Positions 56,070 through 63,825 are shown, numbered from the stretch's first letter. The stretch is DNA of 64,000 bases from Candidatus Bathyarchaeota archaeon (GCA_026014485.1 JAOZIE010000023.1:310001-374000), one strand, 5' to 3'. A program made the numbers and translations. The notes: generated from the letters alone by a model not told the origin.

Positions 56070-56405
56070 TTAAGGTTGGTTCAGGCTTTGTAAAGCTTCT
56101 TTTTGGGAAGGGAATATTTTAAAAATCTGTGTGAAACCCGATATTTCAAATACCTCATACACATAAGGTTTCATGGAAACTAATAGAATTTGGCCGTCTG
56201 TTTTTTGTAAATTTTTAGCTGAAGACAGAAGAACCCTCAAACCCGCACTGGCTACATACTCAGTTTGAGAAAAATCGCAAACAATTTTTTTTGTTCCTTT
56301 TGCAATTAGCTCTCGTAGTACCATATCAACATCGTTAGCAGTATAGGCGTCGAACCTGGGTACCATGACTGCTATAGTTACGTCGTCTTCTGTCCTTATC
56401 TCCAT
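56070..56405 (-). CDS. STAS-domain anti-anti-sigma-type protein, first
   Basis: A 111-residue RsbV/SpoIIAA-like domain: VPRFDAYTANDV, the phospho-site region CDFSQTEYVASAGLRVLLSSA with Ser at the usual place, and YEVFEISGFTQIFKIF. In bacteria such proteins bind the kinase RsbW when unphosphorylated. ATG at 56405 follows GTGAGG; the longer frame to 56432 overlaps the kinase gene. It is close in sequence to the protein at 58686. Confidence 0.9.
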   Translation of the reverse strand: MEIRTEDDVTIAVMVPRFDAYTANDVDMVLRELIAKGTKKIVCDFSQTEYVASAGLRVLLSSAKNLQKTDGQILLVSMKPYVYEVFEISGFTQIFKIFPSQKEALQSLNQP

Positions 56406-56415
56406 GTTCCTCACT

Positions 56416-56898
56416 TCATTTTGAAGATTCATTTTTTTTTATATACTTCCCTATTATTAATAGATTCATATCATTACTCCGAACGTACTCTACCTCATCC
56501 ATAAATTTTCTCATAAAAAAAATTCCCAACCCGCCTACTTTTCGTTCATTCAAATCGCTTTCGGTATCCGGATTTGGTATAGTGGTCGGGTCAAACGGTT
56601 TCCCCCAATCCATAATATTAACTATAAATTTTTCACCGGAGATAGGTAGCATGCAACGGATTACAATGGTGCCCTCACTTTTGTTAGAGTATGCATGTTT
56701 GATGATGTTTGTGCAGGCTTCATCAACCGACAATTGAACTGCATATATGTCTTTGATGCTTTGTATCTTGCATTGTTTCATTGTTTCCTCTATGAATTCG
56801 CTTATTACCGGTAGCTTTTCGAGCTTACTTTCCACTGTAAGTTCAAACTTTTCTTCCGTAGTCTCATTCTCAGTTTCTGTCCTTTGCTTGCCTTTCAA
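56416..56898 (-). CDS. RsbW/SpoIIAB-type serine kinase (HATPase)
   Basis: A 160-residue GHKL ATPase. The N-box is SVDEACTNIIKHAY, the G1 region DWGKPFDP, and the G2 region KVGGLGIFFMRKFMDEVEY. In the bacterial system it phosphorylates the STAS partner and sequesters a sigma factor. Archaea have no such sigma factor, so its second partner is unknown. TTG start six bases after the phosphatase stop; the order phosphatase-kinase-STAS is that of an rsb operon. Confidence 0.9.
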   Translation of the reverse strand: MKGKQRTETENETTEEKFELTVESKLEKLPVISEFIEETMKQCKIQSIKDIYAVQLSVDEACTNIIKHAYSNKSEGTIVIRCMLPISGEKFIVNIMDWGKPFDPTTIPNPDTESDLNERKVGGLGIFFMRKFMDEVEYVRSNDMNLLIIGKYIKKNESSK

Positions 56899-56904
56899 CG
56901 CACA

Positions 56905-58512
56905 TCAGGTCCCCTTGATAACAAGCAGTGTGATGTCATCAAACTGTGGCATATCCACGGTGAACGCCTTTACCTCGGATAAAATCTGCTCGAGAATCGC
57001 CTGTGCCGGAAGATGGGCATTTTTCTGAATGATTTCGATGAGGCGTTTTTCCCCGAACAGTTCTTCCTTAGAATTGATTGCCTCTGTAACACCATCAGTA
57101 TACATGACGATGGCATCACCTTTCTCGATTGTCACTCTTCGGGATTTATATTCCCCGTTCTCGACAGCCCCAAGCACAATGCCCGTAGGCATAAGCTTCT
57201 CAACTGTCTCGTTATGACTCCGGAAAACCACTGGGGGGTTGTGGCCGGCATTAACGTAGGTAAGGGACCTGTCTTTCTCGTTTAGCATACCAAAAAAGAG
57301 GGTTACAAACATCCCTGACTTTGAATCTTGGGTTATCGTATTGTTGGAATTGTAGATTACTTTCGCTGGGTCGTGATGCCAGAGTGCGTTTACCCTGACC
57401 ACAATCCTTGATAACGCCATAAAAAGAGCTGCTGGAACGCCTTTTCCGGAGACATCTGCAACAAGTAGTCCATGCGTGCCCTTGTCAAGAGTCATAACCT
57501 CGTAGGGGATCACGTCAAAGAAGTCTCCTCCGACCTCCTTTGCCATGACGGTCTGGGCGGCGATATCAAATTCTGGAATCTGAGGGATTGTCTCTGGTAG
57601 AAAGCTTTTCTGTATTTCTGCCGCAATCTGAAGCTCCGCATTTGAACGGGCAAGTCGCCCTTCCATCTCACGGCGTTCGGTGATGTCGCGGATTGTTTCG
57701 ATGGCGCCAATAACCTCCCCGTTAGTTGGGTCGTAGAGTGGGCTTGCCTTTGCCCAGAAATAGGCGCCGCCTGGTCGAAAGTCTGGAATAAAGACATCAA
57801 CAACAAGAGTGTCTACATTCCGCTCCACCGTGTTGTATCTTTTTCTTATCTCATCTTCTGGCATGAAAACTAAGTCTGCCAGCATTGGTCTGCGTTCCTT
57901 GTAGAATGGAAGGGCATATTCATAATTTCCTTTGCCGAGCATGGCACCTTCGGGGATGCTGGTTAGCATTTCCATGGCGCTGTTCCACGCGATGACTTTG
58001 CCTTTTGTGTCTATGACAAGTGTGGCGTCGGGGAGGAAACTGAGGATATCTGCAAGGCTGCGGCGTGACCGCGCTATCTCTTGTTCTGCCAGTTTTCGTT
58101 CGGTGATGTCGCGGATTGTTTCGATGGCGCCGATAACGTTTCCAGTATTGGGGTCGTAGAGTGGGCTTGCCTTTGCCCAAAGATAGGCACCGCCTGGTCG
58201 AAAGTCTGGAATAAAAATCTCGACAACAAGTGTATCGTCTATTCGTTCGACTGTGTCATATTTCTTTTCTACCTCGACTTCAGGCATGAAAACTAGATCC
58301 GCCAATATTGGTCTGCGTTCTTTATAGAACGGAAGCGCGTACTCGTAGTTGCCTTTTCCGAGTATGGAGTTTCGGGGGATGCTGGTTAGCATTTCCATTG
58401 CGCTGTTCCACATGATGACTTTGCCTTTTGTGTCTATGACAAACGTGGGGTCGGGTAAAAATTCGATTATTGCATCGCGGACTTTCTTGCCATCGGCGTT
58501 CATGTTTTGCAC
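56905..58512 (-). CDS. PAS-PAS-SpoIIE-type serine phosphatase (RsbU-like)
   Basis: A 535-residue protein: two PAS domains (about 14-140 and 155-281) and a PP2C-type SpoIIE phosphatase (about 300-535). The PAS copies are near identical with a 141-residue period (FLPDPTFVIDTKGKVI and FLPDATLVIDTKGKVI). The phosphatase shows KEVGGDFFDVIP, LLVADVSGKGVPAALFMA and MYTDGVTEA, whose Asp residues bind the two metals. It would dephosphorylate the STAS proteins in response to the PAS signal. The first gene of the run. Confidence 0.93.
   Translation of the reverse strand: MQNMNADGKKVRDAIIEFLPDPTFVIDTKGKVIMWNSAMEMLTSIPRNSILGKGNYEYALPFYKERRPILADLVFMPEVEVEKKYDTVERIDDTLVVEIFIPDFRPGGAYLWAKASPLYDPNTGNVIGAIETIRDITERKLAEQEIARSRRSLADILSFLPDATLVIDTKGKVIAWNSAMEMLTSIPEGAMLGKGNYEYALPFYKERRPMLADLVFMPEDEIRKRYNTVERNVDTLVVDVFIPDFRPGGAYFWAKASPLYDPTNGEVIGAIETIRDITERREMEGRLARSNAELQIAAEIQKSFLPETIPQIPEFDIAAQTVMAKEVGGDFFDVIPYEVMTLDKGTHGLLVADVSGKGVPAALFMALSRIVVRVNALWHHDPAKVIYNSNNTITQDSKSGMFVTLFFGMLNEKDRSLTYVNAGHNPPVVFRSHNETVEKLMPTGIVLGAVENGEYKSRRVTIEKGDAIVMYTDGVTEAINSKEELFGEKRLIEIIQKNAHLPAQAILEQILSEVKAFTVDMPQFDDITLLVIKGT
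57640..58480 (-). repeat. Tandem duplication of a PAS-coding unit
   Basis: The DNA of the two PAS domains is directly repeated at a distance of 423 bases (exactly 141 codons); for example the same 30-base-plus stretch begins at 57676 and at 58099. The high identity at DNA level points to recent duplication or gene conversion. Confidence 0.8.
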
Positions 58513-58615
58513 TCTACGGGGATAGGTATTATTCGGTATAGCTAATTAGCTTTTAGAGCAAGCGAAACCGGGCTTTTTGTATTGAGATTTTTCTTCAAGA
58601 AACATTTGATGCAAA

Positions 58616-58624
58616 CTATAAATA
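58616..58624 (+). promoter_or_regulatory. Box A of the STAS/TPP-enzyme operon
   Basis: CTATAAATA 70 bases before the STAS start, in the divergent region opposite the phosphatase operon. GAGGG at about 58675-58679 is the ribosome binding site. Confidence 0.5.
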
Positions 58625-58685
58625 CGCCCGCAACGTCAAGAAAAATGAATTAACAATAACAAGTTTCTATACTGAGGGTTTGCAG

Positions 58686-59030
58686 ATGAATGTTGAAGTA
58701 AAAACTGTTGACGATTCAAAAATAATTGTTGTCCCCAAGAGATTTGATGCCTATACTGCCAATTCGGTAGAGGAAGAACTAACCCGACTAATTGGTGAGG
58801 GTACTCGCAAGATAGTTTGTGATTTCTCCCAAACTGACTATCTTGCCAGTGCAGGACTAAGAGTTCTCATTGCCGCATCGAAAAACCTGCAGAGAGCAAA
58901 CGGCAAGATGGTTCTCTGCTCAATAAAAGCATACGTGCTTGAAGTATTCGAGATATCGGGCTTAAACAAAATCTTCAAAATTTTTGGGTCAGTTGACGCT
59001 GCCCTACAAGACCTAAAGCAGGTTGTATAA
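58686..59030 (+). CDS. STAS-domain anti-anti-sigma-type protein, second
   Basis: A 114-residue RsbV-like protein, clearly a paralogue of the one at 56070 (VPKRFDAYTANSV, CDFSQTDYLASAGLRVLIAAS, LEVFEISGLNKIFKIF). It is divergent from the kinase/phosphatase operon and two bases before a TPP enzyme gene. ATG at 58686 has GAGGG seven bases upstream; a TTG at 58680 is less likely. Both STAS proteins could compete for the one kinase. Confidence 0.9.
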   Translation: MNVEVKTVDDSKIIVVPKRFDAYTANSVEEELTRLIGEGTRKIVCDFSQTDYLASAGLRVLIAASKNLQRANGKMVLCSIKAYVLEVFEISGLNKIFKIFGSVDAALQDLKQVV

Positions 59031-59032
59031 CT

Positions 59033-60757
59033 ATGAAACTGACAAACGCAGACCTTTTACTAAAATACCTTGAGAACGAAGGCGTCGAGTACATGTTCGG
59101 CGTCCCCGGACTCAGCCTAGTTTCCCTATTCGCCGCATGTAACCGCAACACTAAGATCAAGCCGATCCTCGCCAAACATGAGGAAGGCGCCGCATTCATG
59201 GCTGATGGCTATGCTCGCGTCAAAGGAACCTTAGGCGTATGCTTTGCCACATCAGGTCCCGGCGCAACCAACCTCGTAACGGGTGTGGCAACCTCTTATT
59301 TGGATAACATTCCGGTACTGGTTCTCACTGGTCAAGTGGCAACATCGACTTCTGGCGGTGGCGCTTTTCAGGATTCCACCAAATACGGCGTCGACTCCGT
59401 GGCCATGTTTGACCCCATCACTAAGTACAGTTCCATGGCGATTTCTAAATACCGCGTCGGCGAGGAAATACGTGAAGCCTTAAGGATAGCCTTAACCGGC
59501 AAAAAAGGGCCTGTTCACCTGAGTTTACCTAAAGATATAATGTCTGAAGAAGTAGAAGCAGACCTCCCCACCTCAACCTCCTACAGGCCGCCAACCGAAT
59601 ATTTTGATAGACGTCTAGTAATTGAGGCTGCAGAGCAACTTGTCAATGCCCAGAACCCCGTTATATTGATTGGTAGCGGCGCTTTAGCTTCAAAAGCTTG
59701 CGATGAAATCCGCGATTTAGCCGAGACCCTCGATATTCCTGTTGCTACTTCCCCCAAGGCAAAAGGCGCCTTTCCCGAAGACCATCCGCTCTCTTTGGGT
59801 GTGCTTGGTTTCTGTGGGTCTCCTGTTGCCGAACGATGCCTAACTGAGGGACAAACTGATGTGCTTTTAGTTGTTGGGTCTAGCCTTAACCAGATGACAA
59901 CTAGCTCTTGGGACCCCAGATTGGCGCCAACAAAATGTCTAATTCACATAAACATTGATGCAACTGAAATGGGCAAAAACTACCAAACCGACATCCCGCT
60001 GGTTGGCGATGCCCGTACTATAATCAACGAGATATCCTTCCGTATTATGCGCTACATTGTTGAGAACCAGAAGCCTAAAAGTAACGGTGCAGAAAGGGTC
60101 GCAAAAATCCGACAAGAAGTCGGCATATGTGTTGGAGCCGAGAAGATGGAGTCTGATGCGGTTCCAGTTTTGCCGCAACGTTTAATCAAGGAACTTGAAC
60201 GTGCTCTACCCAAAGACGCCATCCTGTTCGTGGATACAGGGAACCCCATGTGCTGGGTAATTCATCACATGCAAGCCCGTACCCCGTACTCATTCATCTG
60301 CCCCTTCGGTCTTTTAACTATGGGGTACTCCACCGCTGCGGCTATAGGCGGCAAATTAGCTGCCCCCAACCGCCCAGTCGTTTCCATAATTGGCGACGGA
60401 TGCTTCCTCATGAACGGCATGGAAATCCAAACCGCCGTCAGCTACGACATACCCGTCGTCTGGATTGTGGAGAACAACGCAAAACTTGGGTTAGTGCATG
60501 AATTCCAAAGGTTAAACTTCGGCGAAAAGACGGTTGTTACCCGATTCAAAAAGATCGACGCCGCCAAAGTAGCTGAAGGACTAGGCGCCAAAGGCTACAC
60601 TATCGAGCGCCCAGGCGAACTAGAAGAATTACTGCCAAAAGTTATCGAAGAGAACAAACCCGCTGTCATCGACTGCACCATCGCCGACGAAGTACCCCCG
60701 CTGGCACCATTTGTACAGGGACTGAAAAACTTCTCAGAACGCCTAGCAAACATCTAA
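59033..60757 (+). CDS. Acetolactate synthase-like TPP-dependent enzyme
   Basis: A 574-residue thiamine-diphosphate enzyme. The N-terminal domain has MFGVPGLSLVSLFAA and the catalytic Glu in KHEEGAAFMADGYARV, then SGPGATNLVTGVATSYLDNIP; the C-terminal one has GDGCFLMNGMEIQTAVSYDIP. It resembles IlvB (12693) but lacks an adjacent small subunit and differs in the active-site loop, so it may be a catabolic acetolactate synthase, sulfopyruvate/oxalyl-type decarboxylase or related enzyme. Cotranscription with a STAS gene is unusual and suggests its expression or activity follows the stress switch. Confidence 0.85.
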   Translation: MKLTNADLLLKYLENEGVEYMFGVPGLSLVSLFAACNRNTKIKPILAKHEEGAAFMADGYARVKGTLGVCFATSGPGATNLVTGVATSYLDNIPVLVLTGQVATSTSGGGAFQDSTKYGVDSVAMFDPITKYSSMAISKYRVGEEIREALRIALTGKKGPVHLSLPKDIMSEEVEADLPTSTSYRPPTEYFDRRLVIEAAEQLVNAQNPVILIGSGALASKACDEIRDLAETLDIPVATSPKAKGAFPEDHPLSLGVLGFCGSPVAERCLTEGQTDVLLVVGSSLNQMTTSSWDPRLAPTKCLIHINIDATEMGKNYQTDIPLVGDARTIINEISFRIMRYIVENQKPKSNGAERVAKIRQEVGICVGAEKMESDAVPVLPQRLIKELERALPKDAILFVDTGNPMCWVIHHMQARTPYSFICPFGLLTMGYSTAAAIGGKLAAPNRPVVSIIGDGCFLMNGMEIQTAVSYDIPVVWIVENNAKLGLVHEFQRLNFGEKTVVTRFKKIDAAKVAEGLGAKGYTIERPGELEELLPKVIEENKPAVIDCTIADEVPPLAPFVQGLKNFSERLANI

Positions 60758-60830
60758 TCAGTCCCTCCATTCTTTTCTTACCCTTATTGTAAAAACTAAT
60801 AGAGAACCGAGAATTAGTGCATTGATGTTG

Positions 60831-60880
60831 TGGTGGGTTGGGGGATTTGAAACCCTGACAAGCTCGAGATCCCACTTGCA
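60831..60880 (-). other. tRNA 3'-end-like remnant
   Basis: Read on the minus strand, GGGTTTCAAATCCCCC followed by AACCCACCA looks like the T arm, acceptor strand and CCA of a tRNA. The T loop has one extra T, and no 5' half with a matching acceptor strand lies upstream, so it is not a working tRNA. Such 3' pieces are left when elements integrate into tRNA genes. It lies just left of the RiPP-like locus. Confidence 0.3.
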
Positions 60881-61056: not shown

Positions 61057-61788
61057 ATGGACTTTTTTGACCTTATGAATATATCACACCGCTATATGGA
61101 GATACTCAACCCTTCTACGTCTGAAAAAATCATCCAACTCGGCAAACTGCTCAAGTTGAAAAAAGGTAGTCGAGTTATAGACTTCGGTTGTGGTTGTGCC
61201 GAATCTCTCGCTCTTTGGGCTGAGGAATTCGGTATTACCGGTATTGGCATAGATATTTCTGGGGATTTCTGCGACCGTGCCAGGGATAAGTTGGTTAAGA
61301 GAGGGTTGTCGGGTCAAATCGAACTCGTATGCTCCCCCGCGGCTGACTACGTGTTCGAGGAGGGGGCTTTCGATGCCGCAACATGTATTGGGGCAACTTT
61401 TGTTTTTGGCGGTTTCCAGCAGACAATTCAGGCGATGAAGCGGGCTGTGCATCAGAATGGGCGCCTCGGCATCGGTGAAACTCACTGGCTTAGCAGTCAG
61501 GTACCTCCGGAATATGCCCAAAAACAGACAACTACCCACACGGAACCCGAACTGGCCCAATTTATCCGAAACGAAGGCTTTGAACTTGAATATATCATCC
61601 GTTCCAGCCGCGATGACTGGGACAGGTACATTTCGGATAATTGGTATGGACTGTTACGTTGGCTTGAAGAAAATCCCAACCACCCTGACCGTGAACAGGT
61701 ATTCAAACACTTCCGTACTGACCAGGATGATTATTTGCAGTTTCAAAGTCAATATATGGGCTGGGCTATGTACTGCCTTTCTTCGTAA
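61057..61788 (+). CDS. Class I SAM-dependent methyltransferase
   Basis: A 243-residue methyltransferase of the Rossmann type. Motif I is VIDFGCGCAESLALWAEEFG (about 41-60), motif II has GIDISGDFCDRAR, and motif III is FDAATCIGATFVFGG. It resembles the ubiquinone/menaquinone or small-molecule group rather than DNA methylases. It starts with ATG behind GACGGAGG-type sequence. It stands just before the putative RiPP precursor and radical SAM enzyme on the same strand, so methylation of the peptide product is possible but unsupported; a new promoter follows its stop. Confidence 0.85.
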   Translation: MDFFDLMNISHRYMEILNPSTSEKIIQLGKLLKLKKGSRVIDFGCGCAESLALWAEEFGITGIGIDISGDFCDRARDKLVKRGLSGQIELVCSPAADYVFEEGAFDAATCIGATFVFGGFQQTIQAMKRAVHQNGRLGIGETHWLSSQVPPEYAQKQTTTHTEPELAQFIRNEGFELEYIIRSSRDDWDRYISDNWYGLLRWLEENPNHPDREQVFKHFRTDQDDYLQFQSQYMGWAMYCLSS

Positions 61789-61789
61789 A

Positions 61790-61800
61790 TTTTATATATT
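61790..61800 (+). promoter_or_regulatory. Box A after the methyltransferase gene
   Basis: TTTTATATATT directly behind the methyltransferase stop. It would start a transcript near 61820 toward the small frames and precursor downstream. Confidence 0.4.
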
Positions 61801-61856
61801 TAATGCAAATAGACAACCAGCTTGGTGATAACCTGTCAAAACCTCAAAAAGGAGAT

Positions 61857-61952
61857 GTGACAGAGATAGGCAACATTTACGCTTCCCCCGATCATTCATA
61901 TTCACATGTGGACATATACACTTACGATGGGCAAGGGGAGAAAACAAACTGA
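61857..61952 (+). CDS. Possible 31-residue small protein
   Basis: A GTG at 61857 follows AAAAAGGAG by a few bases and opens a short frame (TEIGNIYASPDHSYSHVDIYTYDG...) ending 66 bases before the precursor. An in-frame ATG at 61803 would give 49 residues. The ribosome binding site and the box A at 61790 support translation; no homology is recognised. Confidence 0.2.
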   Translation: MTEIGNIYASPDHSYSHVDIYTYDGQGEKTN

Positions 61953-61976
61953 GGAACCTGGCTTTTCTGTTAAGTA

Positions 61977-61986
61977 GTTATATGCT
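61977..61986 (+). promoter_or_regulatory. Box A of the putative RiPP precursor gene
   Basis: AGTTATATGC, about 33-42 bases before the ATG at 62019. A transcript starting near 62004 would carry GGTGG (62009-62013) five bases before that ATG and would exclude the ATG at 62001. Confidence 0.45.
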
Positions 61987-62018
61987 CACCAGTTAGGTTA
62001 ATGCGAACGGTGGATACA

Positions 62019-62243
62019 ATGTACAAAATTGAGCAGAACGAGTCAATTAAAATAGCCGAACATATGCATGAAGAACTTGCATCAATAAATTTCTTCAAAC
62101 CTGTTTTTAAAACGCACGAAGTATTAGCAGCAACTGCACAGGGCACCATATGTGAAGACTTGTGCGAAACCCCCTGTTCTTCCGGTTGTGAAAAAGATTG
62201 CATGAGTGGCTGTTATAATAGCTGTATTATAACAAGTAAGTAG
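62019..62243 (+). CDS. Putative cysteine-rich RiPP precursor peptide
   Basis: A 74-residue peptide. Residues 1-43 are a helical, charged leader-like part (EQNESIKIAEHMHEELASIN...). Residues 45-69 hold seven cysteines at positions 45, 49, 53, 57, 61, 65 and 69, spaced exactly Cys-x3-Cys throughout (CEDLCETPC, SSGCEKDC, MSGCYNSC), then IITSK. Leader plus Cys-rich core immediately before a radical SAM/SPASM gene is the layout of sactipeptide and ranthipeptide loci. ATG at 62019 is chosen for its GGTGG and promoter spacing; ATG at 62001 adds six residues. Not recognised as a known precursor family. Confidence 0.75.
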   Translation: MYKIEQNESIKIAEHMHEELASINFFKPVFKTHEVLAATAQGTICEDLCETPCSSGCEKDCMSGCYNSCIITSK

Positions 62244-62276
62244 GGCAATCGCGTTAACGACTAGATTACGTATGTG

Positions 62277-62286
62277 TCTATAATTA
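62277..62286 (+). promoter_or_regulatory. Box A-like site before the radical SAM gene
   Basis: TCTATAATTA about 60 bases before the GTG start; GGTGGG at 62319-62324 is the nearest ribosome binding site but lies 19 bases from that GTG. The maturase may thus have its own transcript as well as read-through from the precursor. Confidence 0.3.
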
Positions 62287-62343
62287 ACATCAAATCCTCA
62301 ATTGTCTGTTTATCGTTTGGTGGGAAGTTGAACGATTAAAAAA

Positions 62344-63825
62344 GTGGCAGAAACTACTCCAATTAAGCAAGAATTACATTCATTTAATAGTAAAGATGTC
62401 TTGGTTTTAGATTCAAAATGGGTTTTGAGGAACGACAAAACCTACGTTGTGCTCTACTTAGTTAGCTCTTCGGAAACAAAAGTGTGGATTCTGCCAGCGC
62501 CTCTATCATATGCGATTGCTTTTATTAATGGTAGAAACACGTTCGATCAAATTTGCTTTTATATTGGTAAAGTTTTTGGCATTGAAAAGGAGTTTGAGGC
62601 GAAACAAAAAACTACAAAAATCATCAACGTTTTGAAACATAATGGTGTTGGGGTATCCATTCTTGCAGAGAACCAAGGTTATCATCCAAATATTTATGAA
62701 ACAAAAGACTTCTTTGTTCCAGTAAGAAATTATAAAGGTCCTTTCAGAAATAGGCTCAAGGTGCCCACAAGTATCAATTTGTTTACTACAAAAAAATGCA
62801 ATACGAACTGTCTTTACTGCTATGCTGATCGAAGACCTGATGATCAAGGGAACCTTTTGTCTATGAATGAATGGAAAGCGATTATTGATGAATGTATTGC
62901 TTTAAATATTTGGAACATAGGGCTTGTGGGCGGTGACCAACTTGCGTCAAGTGATAGCTTTGCTGTTGTCAAGTACCTTTTAGGCAAACAGGTTCCAGTA
63001 TTTATATCTACTAAGTGCGAAGTGACTGATAAAATTGCAAAGGACTTAGTGGTTGCAGGTTTTCTCTCGGCGTCTCTCAGGAACTTGAACGAACTTCAAT
63101 TAAGTGTTGATAGCGCGAATTCAAGAAATGCAGATTTGTTAACCGGTACCTCGGGGTTCCTTGAAAGAGTTTGCCGAAGTATTGACTGTTGCACGGCGCA
63201 TGGAATCGTGCCAAAGATTAAGGCAGTTTTGACTCCGTTTAATTATATGGAAATCGAAGAAATAATTAGTTATTTTTCGGAGAAAGGTATTGTAGATTTT
63301 CAATTTGTCCATTGCGGTCGTAGTTATTTTAAAGAGAACAAAAACCTCTTGCTGACAGAGGACATGAAAAAGTGGATTCATGACTCAAAAGAACAAGTCC
63401 TCGCCAAATATCCAAACTTCAAAATAACCATACAAGATGAACCGCCTAGGAACATAAGCAGAACCGAAAAAATCGAAACGTGGAAGAGGCGGGCTAAATG
63501 CAGCGGCGGATATAGTTCACTTACCATTTTGCCAACAGGATTTGTTATTGCTTGCGAGCAAATTCCACAGATACCCCAATATTTCATGGGGAATATACGA
63601 GATGGGGGCATAATGGGAGTTTGGAATAATGAGAAAATAGAGCGCTTTCTTTTTCCTGAACAAAGCCTGTTCAAAGGTTCACCTTGCGGAAAATGTGACG
63701 AATTCGTGAATTGCTTTGATAATGCTGGATTTTGTTTCCGAGATGCTATATTTGCTTACGATGATATCTTTCAGGCACCGCCAAGTTGCCCCAACCAGAA
63801 TCGAAAACCAAGAAGATTATCTTAG
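62344..63825 (+). CDS. Radical SAM/SPASM peptide maturase with PqqD-like N-terminus
   Basis: A 493-residue enzyme. Residues 20-105 (VLRNDKTYVVLYLV, ILPAPLSYAIAFINGRNTFDQIC, a helix ending VLKHNG) look like the PqqD-type RiPP recognition element. The radical SAM motif is C152-x3-C156-x2-C159 (CNTNCLYC), with GLVGGDQ following. From about residue 385 a SPASM region has CSGG, IACEQ, CGKC, NCFD, GFCF and PSCP cysteines for two further Fe-S clusters. Fit: it binds the leader of the peptide at 62019 and modifies its core. GTG start is uncertain. The gene is visibly A+T richer than the window average. Confidence 0.9.
   Translation: MAETTPIKQELHSFNSKDVLVLDSKWVLRNDKTYVVLYLVSSSETKVWILPAPLSYAIAFINGRNTFDQICFYIGKVFGIEKEFEAKQKTTKIINVLKHNGVGVSILAENQGYHPNIYETKDFFVPVRNYKGPFRNRLKVPTSINLFTTKKCNTNCLYCYADRRPDDQGNLLSMNEWKAIIDECIALNIWNIGLVGGDQLASSDSFAVVKYLLGKQVPVFISTKCEVTDKIAKDLVVAGFLSASLRNLNELQLSVDSANSRNADLLTGTSGFLERVCRSIDCCTAHGIVPKIKAVLTPFNYMEIEEIISYFSEKGIVDFQFVHCGRSYFKENKNLLLTEDMKKWIHDSKEQVLAKYPNFKITIQDEPPRNISRTEKIETWKRRAKCSGGYSSLTILPTGFVIACEQIPQIPQYFMGNIRDGGIMGVWNNEKIERFLFPEQSLFKGSPCGKCDEFVNCFDNAGFCFRDAIFAYDDIFQAPPSCPNQNRKPRRLS

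Follow-up and report, generated by a model that had tools for sequence, protein, structure and literature searches.

Among the radical S-adenosylmethionine (SAM) enzymes that act on ribosomally synthesized and post-translationally modified peptides (RiPPs), SkfB and CteB carry a RiPP recognition element (RRE), and in ThnB the loss of this element abolished peptide recognition (reviewed in PMC8172795). PapB is reported to require the arrangement Cys-x3-Asp, and freyrasin contains six Cys-Asp links (PMC8172795). In archaea, radical-SAM RiPP clusters were found to be abundant among the RiPP classes in an antiSMASH survey, with few products identified (PMC12144867). Here we describe a gene pair of a Candidatus Bathyarchaeota archaeon, located in a stretch of 64,000 nucleotides (the window) that corresponds to bases 310001-374000 of contig C9 (612 kb) in a genome of 2.37 Mb. 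The pair encodes a short Cys-rich peptide and a radical SAM/SPASM enzyme, and we consider it likely that both form a minimal, probably horizontally acquired RiPP cassette in which the enzyme, guided by an RRE, makes thioether cross-links at the Cys residues of the peptide.

The original prediction for this DNA had placed three open reading frames (ORFs) on the plus strand, and all of them were confirmed at the same positions: a methyltransferase gene (61057-61788), the precursor peptide gene (62019-62243) and the maturase gene (62344-63825). The peptide of 74 amino acids, MYKIEQNESIKIAEHMHEELASINFFKPVFKTHEVLAATAQGTICEDLCETPCSSGCEKDCMSGCYNSCIITSK, was read from the ATG at 62019 as the probable start, just before which a ribosome-binding-like motif (GGTGG) is seen in the sequence; if translation began at the in-frame ATG at 62001, the peptide would be 80 amino acids long. 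Its leader covers approximately residues 1-44, and its C-terminal end holds the core (62151-62225, CEDLCETPCSSGCEKDCMSGCYNSC), in which seven Cys residues, one at every fourth residue, stand in a perfect C-x3 register, so that position +4 of each repeat is always Cys. When compared with the NCBIfam model TIGR04117 (CXXX-repeat radical SAM target), the peptide scored 18.7 bits at a cut-off of 50, and the match was confined to the Cys repeat.

The maturase gene starts with GTG and encodes 493 amino acids, for which Pfam detected Radical_SAM (PF04055, E 2e-12) and SPASM (PF13186, E 2e-8). The radical SAM motif CNTNCLYC (C152-x3-C156-x2-C159, plus strand, 62797-62820) and the SPASM Cys residues had been reported from inspection by eye, and both are supported by the domain matches as well as by an alignment of 16 relatives, in which Cys 152, 156 and 159 are invariant. 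The same is true for seven Cys residues of the SPASM domain (386, 404, 448, 451, 457, 464 and 482; plus strand, 63499-63789) and for a C-terminal P-x-C-P motif; these SPASM Cys residues are the predicted ligands of auxiliary clusters. The AlphaFold model of the full enzyme (predicted local distance difference test score, pLDDT, 88; predicted template modelling score 0.88) was closest to SuiB in Foldseek (E 1e-16), with SkfB, CteB and PqqE also among the best matches, and a profile search of the PDB ranked PqqE first (E 3e-26). None of the curated NCBIfam models came near its cut-off: the mycofactocin maturase model scored highest (73 bits, cut-off 265), and the named maturases PapB (35/340), AlbA (48/850), SkfB (31/300) and PqqE (50/381) scored lower still. 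In a scan of the genome with TIGR04115 (CXXX-repeat maturase) the window enzyme was absent from the matches and no match exceeded the cut-off. Elsewhere in the genome, a different radical SAM protein (L078; G000 C2 151743-152738) matched this model with 116 bits at a cut-off of 350.

An N-terminal PqqD-like domain had been guessed by eye, and the absence of a PqqD or RRE fold in profile searches had been named as the result that would speak against it. The search was run and the fold is present, at about residues 17-106 (plus strand, 62392-62661). Since Pfam gave no significant PqqD match with single N-terminal domains, that of the window enzyme included (best E 0.14, in two of 17 sequences), the assignment rests on profile and fold. 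A profile of residues 1-139 built from 17 sequences was searched against the PDB (177,635 sequences, E up to 10) and returned three matches, all of them PqqD (5sxy, E 2.5e-4; 5vrd, 0.007; 3g2b, 0.92). AlphaFold modelled the domain (pLDDT 84) as four strands followed by three helices, and it is this strand-then-helix order that defines RREs (PMC12710340). Foldseek matched the model best to PqqD 5sxy (E 1.6e-3, probability 1.0) and to the lasso-peptide leader-binding structures 6jx3 and 5v1u/5v1v, and the PbtF RRE was also among the matches.

The first relatives of the enzyme were encoded on plasmids of Rhizobium, Mesorhizobium and Paenibacillus, with 23-26% identity over 84-98% of the length. 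An alignment of these plasmid relatives led to 20 loci among the GTDB genomes; the best match, from a Bacteroidales genome, showed 35% identity over nearly the whole protein. Single-sequence scans of assembled genome and viral contigs yielded no relatives of the enzyme, nor did a search of the viral contigs with the plasmid-seeded alignment. Two unannotated phage records contained a weak match to part of the enzyme. The 17 full-length relatives belong to Bacteroidota, Chloroflexota, Ignavibacteriota, Pseudomonadota, Desulfovibrio, Paenibacillus and the archaeon Methanothrix. The subfamily, as delimited by these searches, is unnamed in NCBIfam and has members in six or more bacterial phyla and in two archaeal lineages; literature searches within an open-access library yielded no description of it.

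That the small peptide should co-occur with the enzyme in related genomes had been proposed as a check, and such co-occurrence was found. At 15 of the 17 full-length relatives, a short ORF whose last 50 residues include four or more Cys lies no more than 400 bp from the enzyme gene and on its strand. From the remainder of the DNA at these loci, 0.02 such ORFs per locus would be expected, and we therefore regard the pairing of peptide and enzyme as real. At the remaining two, both from Afifella (L035 and L037), a Gly/Ser/Cys-rich peptide was recognized by eye at the same place, outside this spacing, and three further plasmid loci also show the pair. The arrangement varies: in a Melioribacteraceae locus (L024) the peptide lies downstream of the enzyme, and in Paenibacillus two peptides lie beside it. 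The cores are GCDSCTVCPCMICW in rhizobia and their relatives, CTMGCSMRCTSCSPGCS in Paenibacillus and CITYCVNGCQTSCEDGRQYGQC in Methanothrix, whose contig also bears a putative mtrH-like gene identified by eye. Closely spaced Cys residues are the sole recurrent feature of these peptides. As the rhizobial group forms one clade of the enzyme tree and the Paenibacillus group another, the relatives are partly non-independent; when clades are counted instead, six or more bacterial phyla and a second archaeon still show the pairing.

Two details of these loci were noted besides. In alphaproteobacterial cassettes (L010 7514-8875, L011 7538-8839, L027 7512-8867, L028 5549-6907, L030 and L031) a second radical SAM gene lies directly downstream, and CxxCTVCPCMICW, or a close variant of it, forms the end of the peptide. 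On a Paenibacillus peoriae plasmid (L012 5923-7460) the maturase gene is split by frameshifts, and the two Cys-rich peptide genes upstream of it are intact.

The recurrence of the pair also bears on the idea that the short ORF encodes an unmodified Cys-rich protein binding a metal or a cluster, and that the enzyme acts on another substrate. CxxxC arrays are able to bind metal, and the peptide of one relative (L023) weakly resembles a heterodisulfide reductase subunit (E 0.009). However, the enzyme has an RRE of the peptide-binding type, and very different Cys-rich peptides stand beside it across the bacterial phyla and in the other archaeon, which makes this explanation highly improbable. That the enzyme matures the peptide is at least as likely as the cassette reading as a whole. 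In the proposed mechanism, the 74-amino-acid peptide would be the substrate and its leader would bind the N-terminal RRE. The radical SAM core would cleave SAM at the cluster held by CxxxCxxC, and the resulting 5'-deoxyadenosyl radical would remove hydrogen atoms from residues of the core. Electrons would pass to the SPASM clusters, which would probably also bind the sulfur of peptide Cys residues, so that several carbon-sulfur (thioether) links, each with a loss of 2 Da, would form in the C-x3 repeat. Leader removal and export, if any, would fall to host proteins encoded elsewhere. The usual role of such cassettes is to make a competition or signalling peptide; the role of this one, like the number and pattern of its cross-links, is conjectural.

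Thioethers from Cys to carbon are, with some reserve, the product chemistry that we favor. They are deduced solely from the fold of the enzyme and the abundance of Cys in the core, and appear most likely because closely spaced Cys residues are the constant feature of the partner peptides. Since every +4 position of the window core is Cys, the acceptors would lie within the x3 loops or be Cys residues themselves. The same pair might instead catalyze a carbon-carbon cross-link, an epimerization or a side-chain cleavage, with the Cys residues serving as disulfides or metal ligands. PqqE and SuiB, the best profile and the best fold match, are both carbon-carbon cross-linkers, and this lends such chemistry some weight; yet the partner peptides recur in nothing other than their many closely spaced Cys residues, and the thioether formers SkfB and CteB rank high too, so that we hold it to be unlikely. 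Somewhat more doubtful still is a wider proposal, in which the subfamily turns Cys arrays into products of a new type, such as a ladder of i,i+4 links or a macrocycle that binds metal, and the two-gene unit has been moved between bacteria and archaea by mobile elements.

The methyltransferase had been counted as part of the locus by the original prediction. Its product (243 amino acids, plus strand) is a class I methyltransferase according to Pfam, and a three-gene cluster in which it also modifies the peptide could be argued from the common strand and from the short distance (~210-230 bp) between its stop codon and the peptide start. Among 257 genomes of the class, however, eight orthologues with 79-94% identity and one with 53% were found, and the eight genomes with the close orthologues are without a close relative of the enzyme. 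In one of them (G096) the methyltransferase gene lies 0.1 kb from tRNA-Ala(TGC), with an Mrp-type gene beyond, and the DNA homology between this genome and the window genome stops at the methyltransferase stop codon, beyond which peptide and enzyme follow in the latter. No methyltransferase relative was present at the loci of the enzyme's relatives. Membership of the methyltransferase was rejected on these grounds, the three-gene cluster is largely refuted and retains a very remote probability, and we regard the gene as a neighbor outside the cassette. What stands of the predicted RiPP locus is thus the Cys-rich precursor with its RRE-fused radical SAM/SPASM maturase.

The cassette lies on an archaeal contig, as judged by its gene content, because an archaeal/eukaryal-type ribosomal protein S28e is encoded on the same 612 kb and an Mrp-type gene 12 kb to the right of the enzyme shares 73-83% identity with its orthologues in congeners. 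A search of the assembly for SSU rRNA found none, and the assignment made from the sequence itself thus stops at archaeon. Within the 257 class genomes the enzyme had no relative at E 1e-30 besides itself, and in a sample of 398 genomes of the phylum the other matches at E 1e-20 covered the radical SAM/SPASM part only. An intact tRNA-Ala with an adjoining tyrosine integrase gene is located 12 kb to the right of the enzyme (contig C9 ~385584-385658). A copy of the 3' end of this tRNA (53 bp, 89% identity), with what is left of an integrase C-terminus ahead of it, is found 0.2-0.4 kb to the right of the enzyme and just outside the window (contig C9 ~374003-374196; L009 3004-3197). A further, more decayed copy of the tRNA-Ala 3' end was detected by blastn and alignment to the left of the methyltransferase (60791-60859, minus strand); its local score was 41, compared with 29 for the best of 200 shuffles, and in five relatives no such copy lay upstream of the methyltransferase. 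In two other genomes, different DNA separates methyltransferase from tRNA-Ala: G100 (L071) has an additional tRNA copy, and G099 (L074) has an integrase C-terminal remnant. Judging from these loci, tRNA-Ala(TGC) is a repeatedly used integration hot spot in this archaeal family. An acetolactate-synthase-like gene at 59033 was also tried as an anchor for the empty-site comparison and was rejected, its relatives being only 36-39% identical in the genomes checked.

Because the pair sits between methyltransferase and tRNA-Ala, beside a decayed tRNA/integrase remnant, it was probably acquired horizontally at the tRNA-Ala integration site. It would have entered on an element whose integrase later decayed, and a second element would then have inserted between cassette and tRNA-Ala. 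The G+C content of the cassette region (~0.37-0.41, compared with 0.45-0.50 in the left flank) is in line with such an arrival. In the tree the window enzyme joins the Bacteroidales enzyme (support 100/99) with long branches on both sides, and the Methanothrix enzyme is nearest to Paenibacillus, which argues for probably two separate entries into archaea. The origin of the cassette would presumably be bacterial, and the label archaeal given to the system therefore applies to its present host, its type being bacterial.

The second element (L009 3855-14529; contig C9 ~374854-385528) encodes a tyrosine integrase, a primase-like protein (PriCT_1) and a type II DNA methyltransferase. Close together it also encodes an ATPase resembling BrxC/D (Pfam E 4e-16), a nuclease of the Csa1/Cas4 family (E 1e-25) and a 309-amino-acid protein, a group that is possibly an undescribed defence module.

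Several points weigh against a functional, thioether-forming cassette. Product, expression and binding are presumed, and thioether formation is only one of several SPASM reactions. Apart from their richness in Cys, the relatives' peptides could not be shown to share a motif in core or leader. The locus holds no dedicated protease or exporter; the statement that neither transporter nor peptidase is in view holds past the window edge too, where the tRNA/integrase remnant is followed by the second integrated element. Finally, a single-copy cassette beside decayed integration sites could be a passenger that is losing its function, although its catalytic residues are all intact. In its extreme form, this would make the pair the cargo of a dead integrated element whose expression has been lost, as the decay of flanking integration sites and integrase and the frameshift in the Paenibacillus plasmid relative would suggest. 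Both frames are nevertheless full-length with all conserved Cys residues, while only a C-terminal fragment is left of the adjacent integrase, and we deem such a remnant improbable.

Other genes of the window were recorded as well. A 49-amino-acid ORF (61803-61952) between methyltransferase and peptide contains no Cys. Further to the left, a bacterial-type partner-switching set was read by eye (56070-59030), with putative STAS anti-sigma antagonists (56070-56432 and 58680-59030), a putative HATPase-type kinase (56416-56898) and a putative double-PAS SpoIIE-like phosphatase (56905-58512), for which PADLOC gave no match.

The locus provides a compact and testable archaeal example of a probable RiPP system, in which a single substrate is paired with a single enzyme whose catalytic residues are intact, and it shows signs of having been transferred at a tRNA gene. 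Beyond this, it points to a maturase subfamily without a name that occurs on rhizobial plasmids and in Paenibacillus, Afifella, Desulfovibrio, Bacteroidota, Chloroflexota and Methanothrix and that, because its precursors vary widely in Cys pattern, is well suited to the question of how Cys arrays of different patterns are processed by enzymes of a single family. SuiB (streptide) and PqqE/PqqD provide the best fold and the best profile match, with PqqD nearest to the N-terminal domain. SuiB and PqqE form carbon-carbon links in Lys-Trp or Glu-Tyr cores, whereas the window core is a Cys array. The sactipeptide maturases AlbA and SkfB and the SCIFF/ranthipeptide maturases CteB and Tte1186 likewise combine an N-terminal RRE, a radical SAM core and a C-terminal SPASM/twitch domain with an adjoining short Cys-rich precursor. 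The window precursor differs from theirs in its seven Cys residues at strict four-residue spacing and in having no transporter or protease nearby, and the enzyme is far below the NCBIfam cut-offs for AlbA, SkfB and PapB. PapB with freyrasin (a ranthipeptide with CX3D repeats) shares the four-residue spacing of donor Cys and the single maturase, but position +4 of the window core is Cys and never Asp. The CXXX-repeat targets (TIGR04117 and TIGR04118) with their partner TIGR04115 also have Cys at every fourth core residue and a radical SAM maturase; here the window peptide remains under the TIGR04117 cut-off and the enzyme is not among the TIGR04115 matches. The archaeal ranthipeptide and sactipeptide clusters listed by antiSMASH are of the same radical-SAM RiPP type and are survey-level predictions only. 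The Bathyarchaeota cassette is thus of a kind already known, built around an enzyme subfamily that is unnamed.

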